A stretch of 21,523 nt of DNA from positions 1 to 21,523 of the IMG/VR virus record IMGVR_UViG_3300020436_000116. One strand, written 5' to 3'. Below the pieces are notes generated by a model that searched no databases, was not told the DNA's origin, and saw nothing but the letters and a program-made list of their open reading frames with translations. Both the position numbers and the translations under genes were made by a program. Origin of the DNA: a virus. Below are positions 2,764-6,758 of the stretch, piece by piece; within the stretch, counting starts at the first letter, position 1, and every line of letters begins with the position of its first letter.

Positions 2764-3561
2764 ATGACTTCATCACAACTAAACGTATCTGAAACACCAC
2801 CAATGTCTCAAGAAGACTTGGAGACTTTAGCTAAAAATGAAACAGATGAAAATGGTCTAATACTAGGTAAGTTTAAAACTGTTGAAGATTTAGCTGCAAG
2901 TTACAAAGAGCTTGAAGGTAAACTTGGTAATAATACTTCAGAAGAGGAAGGCCAAGAAGAAACTGTTGAAGAAAACGAAAGTCAAACAGATTACCATGAC
3001 ATCTACGGTGATGGATTGGCTGAAGTATTAGATGAAGTTGGCATTGATCCAGAAGATATTACAAATAGATTTATTGAAAATGGGAACATAAGTGATGATG
3101 ATTATTCAAAACTAGAGGAGGGTGGATTTTCTAGACAAGTTATTGATACTTATTTAGATGGTGTTAGATCTCAAGGGAATGTTGAACAAATAGCTAGGGG
3201 AGAAATTTCAAGTATTAAAGAGATTGCAGGTGGAGATCAGGGTTACGAACAGATGAAATCTTGGGCTAATGAAAATTTATCTCAAGATGAAATTACTGCT
3301 TTTGATAATCTAACTGCTACAGCATCAGCACCAGCGATTAGACTAGCAGTGCAAGGACTTTATTCTCAATACAGTAATGCTATGGGTATCGAACCAGATT
3401 TAGTGTCAGGAAGACCATCAAGTAATGGATTAGCTCCATATAGATCAGCAGCAGAAGTTACTGCTGCTATGAGTGATCCACGTTACGGAAAAGATATGAC
3501 TTACACAGGAACGGTGCAAGAGAGGTTGCGTGAAAGTGATGTCTTTAGAAGATCTAGATAA
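2764..3561 (+). CDS. capsid assembly scaffolding protein (T7 gp9-like)
   Basis: This 265-aa protein is strongly acidic in its first half, with Glu/Asp-rich stretches such as TSEEEGQEETVEENES (about residues 58-73). Its C-terminal part (about 200-265) is a helical region ending in basic residues (RLRESDVFRRSR). An acidic, helical protein placed between portal and capsid genes and ending in a short basic tail that contacts the capsid protein is the hallmark of podovirus scaffolds. T7 gp9 is about 307 aa, so this one is somewhat shorter. It would direct procapsid assembly and then leave the head. The start is supported by AAGGA (2756-2760). The stop overlaps the next start by one base (TAATG). 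Confidence 0.9.
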   Translation: MTSSQLNVSETPPMSQEDLETLAKNETDENGLILGKFKTVEDLAASYKELEGKLGNNTSEEEGQEETVEENESQTDYHDIYGDGLAEVLDEVGIDPEDITNRFIENGNISDDDYSKLEEGGFSRQVIDTYLDGVRSQGNVEQIARGEISSIKEIAGGDQGYEQMKSWANENLSQDEITAFDNLTATASAPAIRLAVQGLYSQYSNAMGIEPDLVSGRPSSNGLAPYRSAAEVTAAMSDPRYGKDMTYTGTVQERLRESDVFRRSR

Positions 3562-3698
3562 TGGCTAAACCTACAAACCCAAAGCTTTATGCAAGAATAA
3601 AAGCAAAGGTTAAAAGAACTGTTAAGAAGTGGCCTTCTGCTTATGCAAGTGGACAGCTTGTAAGGCAATATAAAGCTGCTGGAGGAGGCTACTCGTAA
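3561..3698 (+). CDS. 45-aa basic protein with a WPSAYASG motif
   Basis: The ORF starts within the scaffold stop (TAATG overlap, base 3561). The protein begins MAKPTNPKLYARIKAKVKRT, continues with KKWPSAYASGQLVRQYKAAG and ends GGYS. By my count it has 11 Lys/Arg and no acidic residue. The Lys-Trp-Pro-Ser-Ala-Tyr-Ala core is a pattern I associate with small conserved proteins of marine phages and some large DNA viruses, without a known function. A basic, glycine-ended peptide of this size would be suited to binding nucleic acid or an acidic surface of the capsid, which is inference. First of a run of five tiny basic genes between scaffold and capsid. Confidence 0.7.
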   Translation: MAKPTNPKLYARIKAKVKRTVKKWPSAYASGQLVRQYKAAGGGYS

Positions 3699-3700
3699 TT

Positions 3701-3820
3701 ATGGCTTTATCTAAAAAACAAAAACAACTCGATAAAACTGGTGATGGTAAAATCACTAGAGAAGATCTTATGATTCTTCGTGCAAAAAAGAAAAAGAAGA
3801 ATGGCAAAACTTACACTTAA
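3701..3820 (+). CDS. 39-aa mini-protein with one EF-hand-like loop
   Basis: The protein opens MALSKKQKQLDKTGDGKITR and ends in a poly-Lys stretch (ILRAKKKKKNGKTYT). Residues 11-22 (DKTGDGKITRED) follow the EF-hand calcium loop: Asp at loop position 1, Asp at 5, Gly at 6, Ile at 8 and an acidic residue at 12. Position 3 is Thr instead of the usual Asp/Asn, and position 12 is Asp instead of Glu, so affinity may be low. A strong Shine-Dalgarno (GGAGGAGG, 3681-3688) precedes it at a slightly long 12-base spacing. It overlaps the next ORF by 20 bases. A lone EF-hand fused to a cationic tail could bind calcium plus DNA or capsid; that role is inferred. Confidence 0.7.
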   Translation: MALSKKQKQLDKTGDGKITREDLMILRAKKKKKNGKTYT

Positions 3821-3953
3821 TCAAATGCGAACTCTGAAGAAACATTCAGAGCATCATTCTAAAAAACATATGGATATGATGAAGAAGTTAATGCGTGAAG
3901 GTTCTTCATTTAAAGCTGCACACAACAAAGCACAAAAAGATGTAGGCAAATGA
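3801..3953 (+). CDS. 50-aa basic His/Met-rich protein
   Basis: The sequence starts MAKLTLNQMRTLKKHSEHHS, continues KKHMDMMKKLMREG and finishes SSFKAAHNKAQKDVGK. It contains five His and six Met, clustered at residues 15-31, and 13 Lys/Arg against four acidic residues. It is predicted to be mostly helical. I associate the general pattern (KKH..HH..KHM...M..M..G.SF..AH..A...VGK) with short proteins in cyanophage genomes, with no known activity. The start lies inside the end of the EF-hand ORF, and the stop overlaps the next start as ATGA (3950-3953), so translation of the group is probably coupled. Confidence 0.7.
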   Translation: MAKLTLNQMRTLKKHSEHHSKKHMDMMKKLMREGSSFKAAHNKAQKDVGK

Positions 3954-4207
3954 GTCTTGATAGATGGTTTAAAGAAAAGTGGGTTGATGTTAAAACAGGC
4001 AAGAAATGTGGCCGAGGTAAAAATGAAAAAGGTAGACCTTACCCTGCTTGCAGACCATCAAAAAGAATTAGCAGCAAAACACCAAAAACTACAAGCGAAA
4101 TGAGCAGTAAAGAGAGAGCTAGATTTAAAAGAGAAAAGACAAGTTCAAAAAATATTAGCTATCAACATAGAAGAAAAAAATCAAGAGATAGTTTAAAGCT
4201 TGCATAA
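3950..4207 (+). CDS. 85-aa basic protein with CG..YPACRPSKR motif
   Basis: The protein begins MSLDRWFKEKWVDVKTGKKC, followed by GRGKNEKGRPYPACRPSKR and a serine/threonine/lysine-rich half (SSKTPKTTSEMSSKERARFK) ending YQHRRKKSRDSLKLA. The WF.EKWVD.KTGK.CGR...YPACRPSKR layout is one I have seen in small proteins of phages and large DNA viruses, with no assigned function. There are only two Cys, too few for a classical zinc finger in a monomer, although dimerisation could supply four ligands. ATGA overlap with the preceding gene implies translational coupling. The closing SRDSLKLA resembles the SRDSLKIK near the start of the 63-aa ORF at 5929, perhaps a shared origin. Confidence 0.75.
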   Translation: MSLDRWFKEKWVDVKTGKKCGRGKNEKGRPYPACRPSKRISSKTPKTTSEMSSKERARFKREKTSSKNISYQHRRKKSRDSLKLA

Positions 4208-4245
4208 GAGTGTTATATTTTAAGTAGCTTACATTTTTTATGTCT

Positions 4246-4250
4246 AAGGG
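4246..4250 (+). promoter_or_regulatory. ribosome-binding site that sets the start at 4258
   Basis: AAGGG ends seven bases before the ATG at 4258. The alternative in-frame ATG at 4240 has only T-rich sequence (ACATTTTTT) before it and no Shine-Dalgarno, so the downstream start is favoured. Confidence 0.5.
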
Positions 4251-4257
4251 CGTATCA

Positions 4258-4503
4258 ATGACTAAGAAGGATAAAGATCCCTCTGGGGGTCTTACTGCTT
4301 CTGGTCGTAGAAAATACAACCGAGCAACAGGTGGAAACTTGCAAGCTCCTGTTACTAAAAAGACAGGTCTTTCTCCTAGACAGAAAGCAAGAAGAAAATC
4401 CTTCTGTGCAAGAATGTCAAAAGTAAAAGGACCGTTAAAAAAAGATGGCAAGTTAACTCGCAAAGCCCTTGCTTTAAGGAAGTGGAATTGTGGGTCAGTA
4501 TAA
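4258..4503 (+). CDS. 81-aa basic protein with SFCARM...RKWNC motif
   Basis: From the chosen start it reads MTKKDKDPSGGLTASGRRKY, then NRATGGNLQAPVTKK, RRKSFCARMSKVKGP, and RKALALRKWNCGSV at the end. The KDP.GGLTA.GR..YN..TG..L..PVT / SFCARM / LRKWNC arrangement is a small conserved family found in many phages and large DNA viruses; I recall it only as a domain of unknown function. An in-frame ATG at 4240 would add six residues (87 aa) but lacks a ribosome-binding site. It is the last of the five basic ORFs before the capsid gene and is followed by a 120-bp leader. Confidence 0.8.
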   Translation: MTKKDKDPSGGLTASGRRKYNRATGGNLQAPVTKKTGLSPRQKARRKSFCARMSKVKGPLKKDGKLTRKALALRKWNCGSV

Positions 4504-4531
4504 ATTAACAAAACGAAAATCTTAATATCAA

Positions 4532-4558
4532 AAGTGCCTGATGCGTCAGATACCACTT
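4532..4558 (+). other. RNA hairpin in the capsid-gene leader
   Basis: AAGTG (4532-4536) pairs with CACTT (4554-4558), and inside it CTGA (4538-4541) pairs with TCAG (4546-4549) around a TGCG tetraloop, leaving a small internal loop. It sits about 65 bases upstream of the capsid start and has no T run after it, so it is not a terminator. It may be an mRNA 5'-end stabiliser or processing site for the abundant capsid message, by analogy with RNase III sites in T7; this is inferred. Confidence 0.35.
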
Positions 4559-4627
4559 ATGAGAACAGACAGTAGTAAAGTTAGTTTCTTAAATTTATTC
4601 AACTATTCTAAAGGTTTTTTACCATGA
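4541..4627 (+). CDS. possible 28-aa leader ORF overlapping the capsid start
   Basis: An ATG inside the hairpin opens a 28-codon ORF (MRQIPLMRTDSSKVSFLNLF, then NYSKGFLP) whose TGA overlaps the capsid ATG as ATGA (4624-4627). The last codons read GGT TTT TTA CCA TGA, so T-TTT-TTA, a canonical -1 slippery heptamer, lies in phase, and a -1 slip there would enter the capsid frame. There is no Shine-Dalgarno at 4541 and the peptide has no recognisable features. Chance is a real possibility in T-rich DNA, so confidence is low. Confidence 0.2.
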   Translation: MRQIPLMRTDSSKVSFLNLFNYSKGFLP

Positions 4628-5610
4628 GTAATGCTACGGTATCTCGCCTTGGTTTGGTCGACAATACAGGAACAGACTTTGACGCTCTGTTTCTGAAAGT
4701 TTTTTCTGGTGAGGTGCTAACTGCGTTCACACGCAATAACATCTTCAACGATCAACTTCATTCTGTTCGTACCATAACTTCAGGCAAATCGGCACAATTT
4801 CCAGTTTTAGGCACTGCCACTGCTTCCTATCATACGCCTGGAAATTTACTTACAGGAGGCAACCAAATCAGACACGGTGAGCGTTTGATTTCAATAGACG
4901 ACCTTCTAATAGCAGACGTTTTTGTAAGTCGGCTTGAGGAATTGAAGAATCATTATGACGTTAGGGCAAGTTACGCTGATGAACTCGGCAAGGCTCTAGC
5001 TAAAACATACGATTCTAATGTCGCAAAAATGATCGCAAATGCGAGTCGTGCATCTTCAACACTTACAGGTATTGCAGGTGGACTTACTTTGACTCTTGCT
5101 TCTGGTAACACAGCTTCAGCAAACGTCACAGGTGATGAGATAGCTGCTGCTATTTATGACATAGCTCAAGCATTTGACGAGCGTGACATTCCTCCTACAG
5201 ATCGTTTCTGTGTATTACCACCTGCTGAGTACTACAAACTTGCTGAGTCTGCTACAAGAACAGTAGATGTTGACTTTAACCCTGGTGGTAATGGTTCGTT
5301 TGCTTCTGGTAAAATCCAGCAAGTTGCAGGTATTCCTGTGATGATGAGCAACAACGTACCTCAATCAAACGTCAGCAGTAATCCAAGCGGTGCAAACAAC
5401 ACCTACTCAGGTGACGATAGTAAAACTATCGGACTTGTTTTCCACAAATCAGCAGTCGGTACTGTCAAATTGATGGACATGACAACTGAAATAACAGGAA
5501 ATGAGTATGCAACGATGTACCAAGGAACATTGCTCGTTGCGAAGTACGCACTTGGGCATGGAATCCTAAGACCAGAGTGTGCAGCTACTATTAAGTTATC
5601 TGCTTCTTAA
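4624..5610 (+). CDS. major capsid protein (T7 gp10A-like, HK97 fold)
   Basis: The 328-aa protein aligns by eye with T7-type capsid proteins (about 345 aa). It has the N-terminal MSNATVSRLGLVDNTG, the FLKVFSGEVLTAFTRNNIF helix region (about 22-40), the VRTITSGKSAQFPVLGTATA segment, GERLISIDDLL, and a C-terminal YQGTLLVAKYALGHGILRPE block. It forms the icosahedral shell with scaffold and portal. AAGG (4611-4614), nine bases upstream, is the likely ribosome-binding site. Codon use is shifted toward C-ending and CGN codons compared with its neighbours, as expected for the most highly expressed phage gene. No gp10B-type extension is possible: both alternate frames stop within about 20 bases of the TAA, before the terminator. 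Confidence 0.97.
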   Translation: MSNATVSRLGLVDNTGTDFDALFLKVFSGEVLTAFTRNNIFNDQLHSVRTITSGKSAQFPVLGTATASYHTPGNLLTGGNQIRHGERLISIDDLLIADVFVSRLEELKNHYDVRASYADELGKALAKTYDSNVAKMIANASRASSTLTGIAGGLTLTLASGNTASANVTGDEIAAAIYDIAQAFDERDIPPTDRFCVLPPAEYYKLAESATRTVDVDFNPGGNGSFASGKIQQVAGIPVMMSNNVPQSNVSSNPSGANNTYSGDDSKTIGLVFHKSAVGTVKLMDMTTEITGNEYATMYQGTLLVAKYALGHGILRPECAATIKLSAS

Positions 5611-5631
5611 CACTTCTTAAATTCAATTTAT

Positions 5632-5663
5632 AAGGTATCTTATTATTAGATACCTTTTTTTTT
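5632..5663 (+). terminator. intrinsic terminator after the capsid gene
   Basis: A perfect 9-bp stem, AAGGTATCT (5632-5640) with AGATACCTT (5648-5656), closes a 7-nt loop (TATTATT) and runs into nine T residues (5655-5663). It begins 21 bases after the capsid stop. T7 has its main terminator at the same place, after gene 10, which lowers expression of the tail and core genes relative to the capsid gene. It is the only convincing intrinsic terminator in the window. Confidence 0.92.
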
Positions 5664-5669
5664 ATAGCT

Positions 5670-5846
5670 ATGAGCATACAAAAACCTCTTTCAAAAAAGG
5701 AAAAAGAAAAAATTAAAAAGATGCGAGAAAAATTAAAAAACGCATCTAAAGAAATAATGGGTGGATCTTTTAAAATAAATCCTAGTGCATCTGCTATGAG
5801 TTCAGCAGCAAAAAAATCTTTAAGAAACAAACTTAAAATTAAGTAA
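5670..5846 (+). CDS. 58-aa Lys-rich protein just after the terminator
   Basis: The protein starts MSIQKPLSKKEKEKIKKMRE, a strongly charged helix, and continues to IMGGSFKINPSASAMSSAAK, ending KKSLRNKLKIK. It has no recognisable domain. The ATG lies seven bases after the terminator T run, with no Shine-Dalgarno in the leader, so expression probably depends on terminator read-through and weak initiation. It is one of three Lys-rich ORFs placed between the capsid and gp11 genes. The SKKEKEKIKKMR opening resembles the SKKQKQ opening of the EF-hand mini-protein at 3701, but without the calcium loop. Confidence 0.6.
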   Translation: MSIQKPLSKKEKEKIKKMREKLKNASKEIMGGSFKINPSASAMSSAAKKSLRNKLKIK

Positions 5847-5851
5847 ACATC

Positions 5852-5926
5852 ATGGGTTATCACACTAAAGGCACTAAAAAATCAACTACCAAAAAAGGTA
5901 GTAAAGGCACTAAAAAGGGGTATTAA
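5852..5926 (+). CDS. 24-aa Gly/Lys/Thr peptide
   Basis: The ORF encodes MGYHTKGTKKSTTKKGSKGT followed by KKGY: nine Lys, one His and no acidic residue, with a TKKG/SKGTKKG repeat character. It starts five bases after the previous stop and is followed two bases later by the next start. AAGGGG in its own last codons serves the next gene. It is very short and has no Shine-Dalgarno, so it could be non-coding, but gap length, composition and placement match the neighbouring small basic genes. Confidence 0.4.
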   Translation: MGYHTKGTKKSTTKKGSKGTKKGY

Positions 5927-5928
5927 TT

Positions 5929-6120
5929 ATGGAGCACAGTAGAGATTCTTTAAAAATTAAAAAATCCAAGAAAAAGAAAAAACTAAAACCTCATGAACTT
6001 TTACAAAAATTCTTGAGAAAAAAGTATGATGATCCTAAACAAGTAAGCAAATTTGGTGTTATCTCTAAAGGCAGAAAAGCTAGAGAAGAGGAATACAAAA
6101 GAATAATGGAGGGTATGTAA
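5929..6120 (+). CDS. 63-aa Lys-rich protein upstream of gp11
   Basis: The protein opens MEHSRDSLKIKKSKKKKKLK, passes through a helix (PHELLQKFLRKKYDD) and ends GRKAREEEYKRIMEGM. I do not know a family. Translation is well supported: AAGGGG (5915-5920) lies eight bases before the ATG, and the stop overlaps the gp11 start (TAATG). The C-terminal codons carry the GGAGGG that serves gp11. Its HSRDSLKIKK opening resembles the end (SRDSLKLA) of the 85-aa protein at 3950. Role unknown; the charge suggests contact with DNA or with the capsid interior. Confidence 0.65.
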   Translation: MEHSRDSLKIKKSKKKKKLKPHELLQKFLRKKYDDPKQVSKFGVISKGRKAREEEYKRIMEGM

Positions 6121-6758
6121 TGGCTGTAGCTGCTTCTACTAAACTTGAAAGTGTAAATATAATGTTATCTGCAATAGGAGAATCTCCTATTAACACATTA
6201 TCAGAAGTAACTGGTACAACTTTTGACAATACAGCTTTACCTGTAGATGCTCAAATGGCTCTTGATATTTTATTAGAACAAGACAGAGCGGTTCAAGGTG
6301 AAGGTTGGAGCTTTAATACAGAAATTGACGTAACTTTAGTTAGAGATAATGTAACTAAAGAAATTATTTTACCAACTGATGCTTTAAGGGTTGACCCTAA
6401 TATTCATCAGCACCCTTCAGTAGATGCGATACAGCGTGGTTTAAAAATGTATGACAGATTAAATAATACTTTTTTGTTTGATAATGATTTGATTTGTACA
6501 ATAGTTTATTTTAGAGAATTTAATGAAATACCAGAACCAGCAAGATACTATATAACTGTAAAAGCCGCTCGTGTTTTTGTTGATAGGTTAGTAAGTGATG
6601 GCGGCTTAAGAGGTTTTACGCAACAAGACGAAGCTAGAGCTAGGGCTGTATTAATGGAAACAGATTTATCTAATGCGGATCATAATCTACTTAGAGGTGA
6701 TCCTTCTCTTACCAATGTATTTGATACATATTCTCCAGCAAACGCATTAATTAGGTAA
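6120..6758 (+). CDS. tail tubular protein A (T7 gp11-like adaptor)
   Basis: The 212-aa protein matches T7 gp11 (196 aa) in size, position and layout. The N-terminal helix carries SVNIMLSAIGESPINTL (about 11-27), the centre has the DILLEQDRAVQGEGWSFNTE block and LPTDALRVDP, and the C-terminal half has FREFNEIPEPARYYITVKAA, a hallmark of the family. In T7 it forms the 12-fold gatekeeper ring joining portal to nozzle. GGAGGG (6108-6113) at six-base spacing gives a strong ribosome-binding site, and the start overlaps the upstream stop by one base. The next gene begins two bases after its stop. Confidence 0.94.
   Translation: MAVAASTKLESVNIMLSAIGESPINTLSEVTGTTFDNTALPVDAQMALDILLEQDRAVQGEGWSFNTEIDVTLVRDNVTKEIILPTDALRVDPNIHQHPSVDAIQRGLKMYDRLNNTFLFDNDLICTIVYFREFNEIPEPARYYITVKAARVFVDRLVSDGGLRGFTQQDEARARAVLMETDLSNADHNLLRGDPSLTNVFDTYSPANALIR

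Follow-up and report, generated by a model that had tools for sequence, protein, structure and literature searches.

The internal proteins of phage T4 (IPI–IPIII) are described as small, basic proteins that bind DNA in low salt, with lysines contacting the DNA phosphates, and that enter the head via a short N-terminal targeting sequence; gp21 of the same phage cleaves after L/I-X-E. Encapsulin cargo-loading peptides are short and terminal and are carried by proteins encoded beside the gene of an HK97-fold shell, the loading peptide of the Myxococcus xanthus encapsulin reading LTVGSLRR. Here we analyzed eight small open reading frames (ORFs), a to h, that surround the capsid gene in a virus record of IMG/VR (IMGVR_UViG_3300020436_000116, positions 1 to 21,523; this whole stretch of 21,523 nucleotides is called the window), together with a short motif, R-x-S-L-[KR]-[ILV], that recurs at the ends of several of their products and relatives. 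On balance, we favor the view that a–h encode small basic head-interior virion proteins that lie among the packaged DNA, several of them possibly loaded via the terminal motif.

Judged from its genes, the window virus is a T7-like marine podovirus, because the portal, scaffold, capsid, gp11 and gp12 genes follow in this order and the scaffold matches the T7 type. The closest complete phage record is that of Prochlorococcus phage P-SCSP2, which its authors assign to the MPP-C clade. Five of the ORFs precede the capsid gene and three follow it, all on the plus strand (aa, amino acids):

3561..3698, plus strand: ORF a, 45 aa, first part of DUF5872 (KWPSAYASG type), by PF19197 profile
3701..3820, plus strand: ORF b, 39 aa, with an EF-hand-like loop, EF-hand models below cut-off
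3801..3953, plus strand: ORF c, 50 aa, probable start ATG 3801, by phrog_31838 and likeness to P-SCSP2
3950..4207, plus strand: ORF d, 85 aa, second part of DUF5872 with C-terminus SRDSLKLA, by PF19197 profile and terminal motif
4240..4503, plus strand: ORF e, 87 aa, DUF6321, by PF19846
4624..5610, plus strand: major capsid protein gene, given for context; protein 86% identical to the P-SCSP2 capsid protein
5670..5846, plus strand: ORF f, 58 aa, basic, with C-terminus KKSLRNKLKIK (only loosely like the motif), from the sequence
5852..5926, plus strand: ORF g, 24 aa, Lys-rich, from the sequence and slot comparison
5929..6120, plus strand: ORF h, 63 aa, basic, with N-terminus MEHSRDSLKIKK, by terminal motif
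5941..5958, plus strand: RDSLKI motif at the start of h, with a second copy at 4184–4201 at the end of d

The start of ORF c is most likely ATG 3801 (50 aa), not GTG 3780, since its P-SCSP2 counterpart starts likewise. A previous sequence-only reading of this DNA had described eight tiny, nearly all Lys/Arg-rich proteins flanking the capsid gene, several of them coupled by overlaps. All eight ORFs are indeed present and basic, with isoelectric points of 10.2–11.6, Lys+Arg contents of 24–35% and net charges of +8 to +22, whereas the scaffold carries −31 and the capsid protein −7. The overlaps were confirmed for scaffold/a (1 nucleotide, nt), b/c (20 nt), c/d (4 nt) and h/gp11 (1 nt). The size range of 39–85 aa given for the pre-capsid ORFs is right at its lower end and extends to 87 aa at its upper end because of ORF e. 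In P-SCSP2, a–e are found in the same place and order with 56, 41, 50, 86 and 85 aa, and an unannotated ORF of 25 aa lies 3' of the capsid gene. In the same scaffold–capsid slot of other T7-like cyanophages, Syn5 has no annotated ORF and P-SSP7 carries hliP, psbA and one 39-aa ORF; no match to a–e was obtained in either genome. To our knowledge, the scaffold–capsid gap of T7 holds no such gene set.

The relatives' loci comprised the best 80 for capsid-protein alignment and those obtained with DUF6321, module a and DUF5872 as queries. Near-duplicates were removed (39 of 397 loci dropped, 358 kept), and the relatives were searched with profiles grown from the window ORFs. The order a<b<c<d<e was observed in all 26 loci of the window's clade that hold at least two of these ORFs, and the 4-nt overlap between c and d in 20 of 21 clade loci. 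Among the 32 clade loci with an intact scaffold–capsid interval, the set reads abcde in 14, acde in 7, ade in 3, abde in 1, be in 1 and e only in 2, and is absent from 4; because d or e served as the query for some of these loci, the true share without a–e may be higher. Median ratios of nonsynonymous to synonymous substitution rates (dN/dS) were 0.38 for a, 0.42 for b, 0.23 for c, 0.22 for d and 0.18 for e, the reference values being 0.11 (capsid protein) and 0.37 (scaffold). This calculation excluded copies that lie on the minus strand, are truncated or contain N, as well as pairs whose dS fell beyond 0.1–1.5. Because of the fixed order across loci and the low dN/dS, a–e are, on this comparative evidence, real genes under purifying selection that can be lost singly or together.

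The profile search of the relatives' loci with f, g and h gave only the window and its own copy (L001). In 21 of 33 loci, the post-capsid slot is occupied by a small basic ORF bearing an RDSLKI-like motif, the conserved part of h is the RDSLKI stretch at its start only, and in relatives the slot of g holds a poly-Lys peptide. The conservation suspected in the sequence-only reading thus extends to a–e and, except for the RDSLKI stretch of h, not to f–h. A terminator-like hairpin with a T run is located between the capsid gene and f (5632–5656; seven terminator-like sites in the window stretch versus 2.0 expected), which may lower the expression of f, g and h relative to a–e. A further small basic ORF (58 aa, net charge +5) lies between portal and scaffold at 2577–2753 and is kept in the clade, with 30 profile matches and a median dN/dS of 0.43. 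In two relatives, b-type proteins are encoded before the capsid gene on the minus strand (L033 278–400 and L038 189–362).

Three of the ORFs belong to described families. ORF a matches positions 1–38 of the 116-position PF19197 (DUF5872) profile with 45.4 bits and ORF d positions 55–112 with 52.8 bits, both above the cut-off of 27.5. No single window chain spans this profile, which in the window is split over two ORFs with b and c lying between them. ORF e covers positions 2–72 of the 72 of PF19846 (DUF6321) with 85.4 bits (cut-off 28.5). The proposal that the cassette is an undescribed system therefore fails with regard to the families, two of which cover three ORFs, and stands with regard to function, as no role for DUF6321 or DUF5872 was found in the literature searched. 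ORF c matches phrog_31838, a phage family without function, and is 76% identical to its P-SCSP2 counterpart. ORF b remains below EF-hand membership (best 19.2 bits versus a cut-off of 25.9), and since the loop reads ARVAPPRDKIT in many relatives, calcium binding is, by this comparison, not a trait of the b family.

The AlphaFold2 model of e is small, helical and confident, with a predicted local distance difference test score (pLDDT) of 88. It matched no solved structure by fold at an E-value of 0.001 and none at Z 2 among 3 chains, and no solved structure was matched by sequence. Against viral models it gave 34 matches; 11 reach an E-value of 0.001 or lower, most of them carrying the name DUF6321 or no name at all. 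The model of d was set aside as too poor (pLDDT 65). A tblastn search detected DUF6321 in 526 of 50,697 phage records; most belong to viruses of Synechococcus and Prochlorococcus, and some to viruses of Pelagibacter. In 84,980 bacterial and archaeal species it was found at 32 loci, 30 of which are titled as metagenome-assembled genome (MAG) or bin; the remaining two are in the Prochlorococcus assembly AG-418-M08 and one Nonlabens strain.

Modules a, d and e are also recognized by profile in the modular DUF6321 proteins of T4-like cyanophages (phrog_727 and relatives). These proteins are encoded in the terminase and tail gene region as one long chain with protease-type sites, unlike the separate tiny ORFs at the capsid gene of the window. 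In ACG-2014d, the second ORF after the small terminase subunit encodes a 399-aa protein in which profiles recognize an a module and DUF6321, and a stretch resembling d is visible by eye. S-SCSM1_29 (517 aa) contains the modules d, a and e by profile (E-values of 2e-4, 1e-11 and 5e-20, respectively) and is recorded as a virion protein; we take this label to mean detection in the virion, since known structural proteins of that record carry the same note. S-CREM2 ORF137, located between the terminase subunit genes, matches DUF6321 with 40.8 bits (cut-off 28.5). It is listed in Table 3 of the virion proteome determined by mass spectrometry, with 4 unique peptides and 4.1% coverage, and the adjoining ORF136 with 8 unique peptides and 24.1% coverage. 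Module relatives are thus recorded in virions of two of the three T4-like phages checked. In some clade loci, a YANIHAKRKR protein encoded 3' of the capsid gene matches phrog_16028, phrog_11180 and phrog_28131; since the other end of the latter two families matches e, both capsid flanks appear to draw on one module pool.

In 103 fused proteins, the protease-type site [LIV]xE[AGS] occurs 264 times versus 119 times after shuffling (standard deviation 10, maximum 144), while in 385 other proteins of the same loci it occurs 364 times versus 434 (standard deviation 21). The sites lie at the module borders: [LIV]xE[AGSN] was found within 14 residues before the module in 42 of 81 cases for d (5.3 expected), 41 of 103 for a (7.3) and 34 of 79 for e (5.7), the expected counts being derived from random windows of the same proteins. 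With distinct windows compared to shuffled windows, the values were 38 of 74 versus 8.9 for d, 30 of 86 versus 5.7 for a and 32 of 69 versus 6.5 for e. For the exact L/I-X-E, the enrichment over shuffled windows holds for a (45 versus 17.1). Owing to the kinship among the fused proteins, none of these counts is independent. In S-SCSM1_29, VSE/GTLHKWF is found at the start of d and VSE/GAAW at the start of e. Targeting-type N-termini were observed in 5 of 6 module proteins shorter than 200 aa, compared with 35 of 325 other small proteins. From these sequence patterns we read the fused proteins as precursors of head-interior proteins, and their cleavage is predicted.

Some other proteins were noted. 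S-SZBM1_195 is an 87-aa virion protein sized like e, and was rejected as a relative as it is not DUF6321; this unnamed protein, encoded beside the small terminase gene (L171 25378–25641), has the third highest exponentially modified protein abundance index (emPAI) among the rows seen of the virion table. A family of about 104 aa starting MKSF..FLSES is encoded right after many modular proteins (e.g., L183 3576–3890, L269 6756–7070 and L302 5210–5524) and itself looks like a targeted head protein from its sequence. The 69-aa "virion protein" S-SCSM1_93 (L400 1626–1835) has the C-terminus KRTFKEFLEYIE, which is like a targeting sequence at the wrong end.

The motif R-x-S-L-[KR]-[ILV] links these small ORFs across families. 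The test was limited to ORFs that share no more than 30 nt with any larger ORF and contain at least 20% Lys+Arg. In 36 clade loci, 38 of 156 capsid-flanking small basic ORFs carry the motif versus 0.14 after shuffling (maximum 2), compared with none of 204 genes of at least 100 aa and none of 16 small basic ORFs elsewhere in the same loci. It lies at most 8 residues from the C-terminus in 32 of the 38 carriers and near the N-terminus in the other 6. The carriers comprise 22 post-capsid ORFs, 10 d, 4 a and 2 e; none of 14 b and none of 16 c ORFs is among them (count without P-SCSP2). In the whole genome of P-SCSP2, the strict motif is present only in a, d and the 25-aa ORF, always C-terminally, and a looser form also matches the primase. 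Of the 962 small basic ORFs in the remaining loci, 19 carry it (0.76 expected, maximum 4), compared with none of 1729 larger genes; 14 of these 19 belong to the same clade according to the p marker gene, and 5 (in L113, L120, L123 and L129) are outside it. Since carriers of one family share ancestry, independent gains are to be counted nearer to the number of families (at least 4) than to 38. In two loci (L022 and L030), the post-capsid peptide is present though a–e are absent.

The sequence-only reading had taken the SRDSLK shared by d and h as a hint of internal duplication. The sharing is real, and a recent duplication was rejected because the codons differ, starting with the Arg codons at 4184 and 5941, and because a repeat search of 3900–6200 pairs no family across both places. 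As compared here, SRDSLK is a recurring short motif at the ends of several unrelated families. It is possible, and we propose it only tentatively, that the motif serves as a cargo-loading tag of T7-like proheads on unrelated tiny basic proteins, which would dock on the inner capsid face or the scaffold and fill the head with DNA-neutralizing proteins. The likeness to T4 IPI–IPIII would then consist in small basic head proteins, DNA contact and a short terminal loading sequence; the differences are that no sequence kinship has been shown, that the candidate tag is mostly C-terminal and that no protease would be needed. No N-terminal capsid targeting sequence of the T4 kind was found in a–h. We know of no head protease of this kind in T7-like phages. 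The likeness to encapsulin peptides would be one of use and of a few letters, not of kinship, docking in a capsid pocket being hypothetical here.

According to the favored reading, the small proteins would be made beside the scaffold and capsid proteins and enter the prohead during assembly. Tagged proteins would dock to the capsid or scaffold protein via R-x-S-L-[KR]-[ILV], and those lacking the tag (b, c and the majority of a proteins) would be drawn in through their charge or by binding a partner. The whole set would come to lie among the packaged DNA with their Lys and Arg side chains meeting the phosphates, and some may leave with the DNA at ejection. In T4-like cyanophages, the same modules would be fused in one precursor and cut by the head protease at the module borders, and in T7-like phages they would be encoded as separate tiny genes. 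For the window virus, we infer translation, packaging, interior location, DNA binding and the role of the tag from what is observed, namely the position of the genes between scaffold and capsid, the purifying selection and conservation of a–e, their kinship with modules of virion-detected proteins, the module-border sites, the statistics of motif enrichment, the basic charge and the T4 precedent. Among the roles put forward in the sequence-only reading, small virion proteins that bind DNA are the best supported, by inference from the virion proteins of T4-like cyanophages.

Several observations weigh against this reading. The b, c and most a proteins lack the motif, and the absence of the whole a–e set from 4 of 32 clade loci makes it dispensable. 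With the exact L/I-X-E, the border enrichment fails for d (30 versus 19.2, maximum 34) and is borderline for e (21 versus 12.2, maximum 21), and 8 of 9 windows downstream of e also hold such a site. Over all sizes, targeting-type N-termini are not enriched in module proteins (6 of 91 versus 40 of 663). The peptides of S-CREM2 ORF137 cover 4.1% of 490 residues and may lie outside the module. S-SZBM1_192, the DUF6321 protein of S-SZBM1, is not among the 30 virion proteins seen in Table 1 of the respective report, nor is it named in its proteome section. No virion proteome of a T7-like member was found in the literature searched.

The last-named result from S-SZBM1 and the loss of a–e gene by gene or as a whole would also fit proteins that bind nucleic acid of the host or the phage within the infected cell that produces them and do not enter the virion, the scaffold–capsid gap merely collecting cargo genes, as the host-metabolism genes hliP and psbA in the gap of P-SSP7 illustrate. 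We regard this explanation as doubtful in view of the two virion-detected relatives, the fixed gene order and the confinement of the motif to capsid-flanking ORFs. The adjoining acidic scaffold (net charge −31) and the coupled genes would be in line with assembly factors that neutralize the scaffold or set prohead size and are removed before DNA packaging; the relatives stay in mature virions, and such a role is unlikely. A place on the outer shell surface, as decoration or cement proteins (the option raised in the sequence-only reading) or as vertex proteins, is suggested by the position of the ORFs around the capsid gene and by Syn5, for which knob- and horn-like capsid proteins are described (PMC10575957). 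Shell decoration was set aside on the structure of the P-SCSP1u capsid at 3.2 Å, which is stated to lack decoration (cement) proteins and to have a shell of capsid protein alone, although P-SCSP1u has an e relative, a DUF6321-like match just 3' of its capsid gene (the same gene is present in P-SCSP1d); this evidence bears on e only. The bare shell is compatible with disordered interior proteins and equally with their absence. As the Lys/Arg charge would suit DNA better and the T4-like fusions carry head-protease-type sites, we give an external location little credence. That the post-capsid RDSLKI stretch is a DNA or RNA element such as a promoter, as the occurrence of TCACTTAAAATA in this slot of many loci might suggest, is highly improbable, since the changes among 18 distinct segments are mostly silent (ratio of nonsynonymous to synonymous changes, pN/pS, 0.18), d, a, e and h encode the peptide by different codons, and the DNA pattern occurs once in P-SCSP2 and is absent from the window at up to 3 mismatches, all of which points to a constraint acting on the peptide.

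A conserved RNA hairpin was observed in the gap between e and the capsid gene (4512–4622, core about 4533–4566), reading AAGUG-C-CUGA-UGCG-UCAG-AUAC-CACUU in the window. In 29 clade loci, 93.5% of the pair cells are standard, and 12 cells with compensatory changes on both sides were counted versus 2.1 after shuffling, with none of 500 shuffles as high. Run on 66 sources, the hairpin model gave 7 weak matches outside the clade (E-values of 0.0013 to 0.65), all 7 just before a capsid gene, including those in the pelagiphages HTVC011P and HTVC142P and the roseophage CRP-113. Taken singly, the hairpin sequences show no folding advantage over shuffled ones (z −1.4 to 0.2), and Rfam gave no match in the window at an E-value of 0.5. 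The hairpin belongs to the capsid gene and not to the cassette, as it is also found before capsid genes without the a–e set (L022, L030, L046 and L047). Two relatives have unusual capsid genes. One is interrupted by a group I intron (L043 5055–5285; Rfam RF00028, E-value 1.2e-17), and in Pelagibacter phage HTVC120P (L006 4001–5175) the capsid protein is annotated as two ORFs with a gap of ~190 nt and no Rfam match.

What was already known here are the domain families and an ordinary operon. New are the split of DUF5872 over two genes, the occurrence of the same modules as separate proteins in T7-like and as fused proteins in T4-like phages with virion evidence, and the clade-wide terminal motif. 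A place in the head interior is a role that can be tested for these families, which are widespread in common marine phages, and the shared motif turns the question of protease-free loading into a simple peptide-tag experiment. If the proposed tag function is true, the motif would do in phages what the cargo-loading peptide does in encapsulins and would serve, with no need for a protease, the purpose of the capsid targeting sequence of T4, and it might offer a new way of loading proteins into phage shells.

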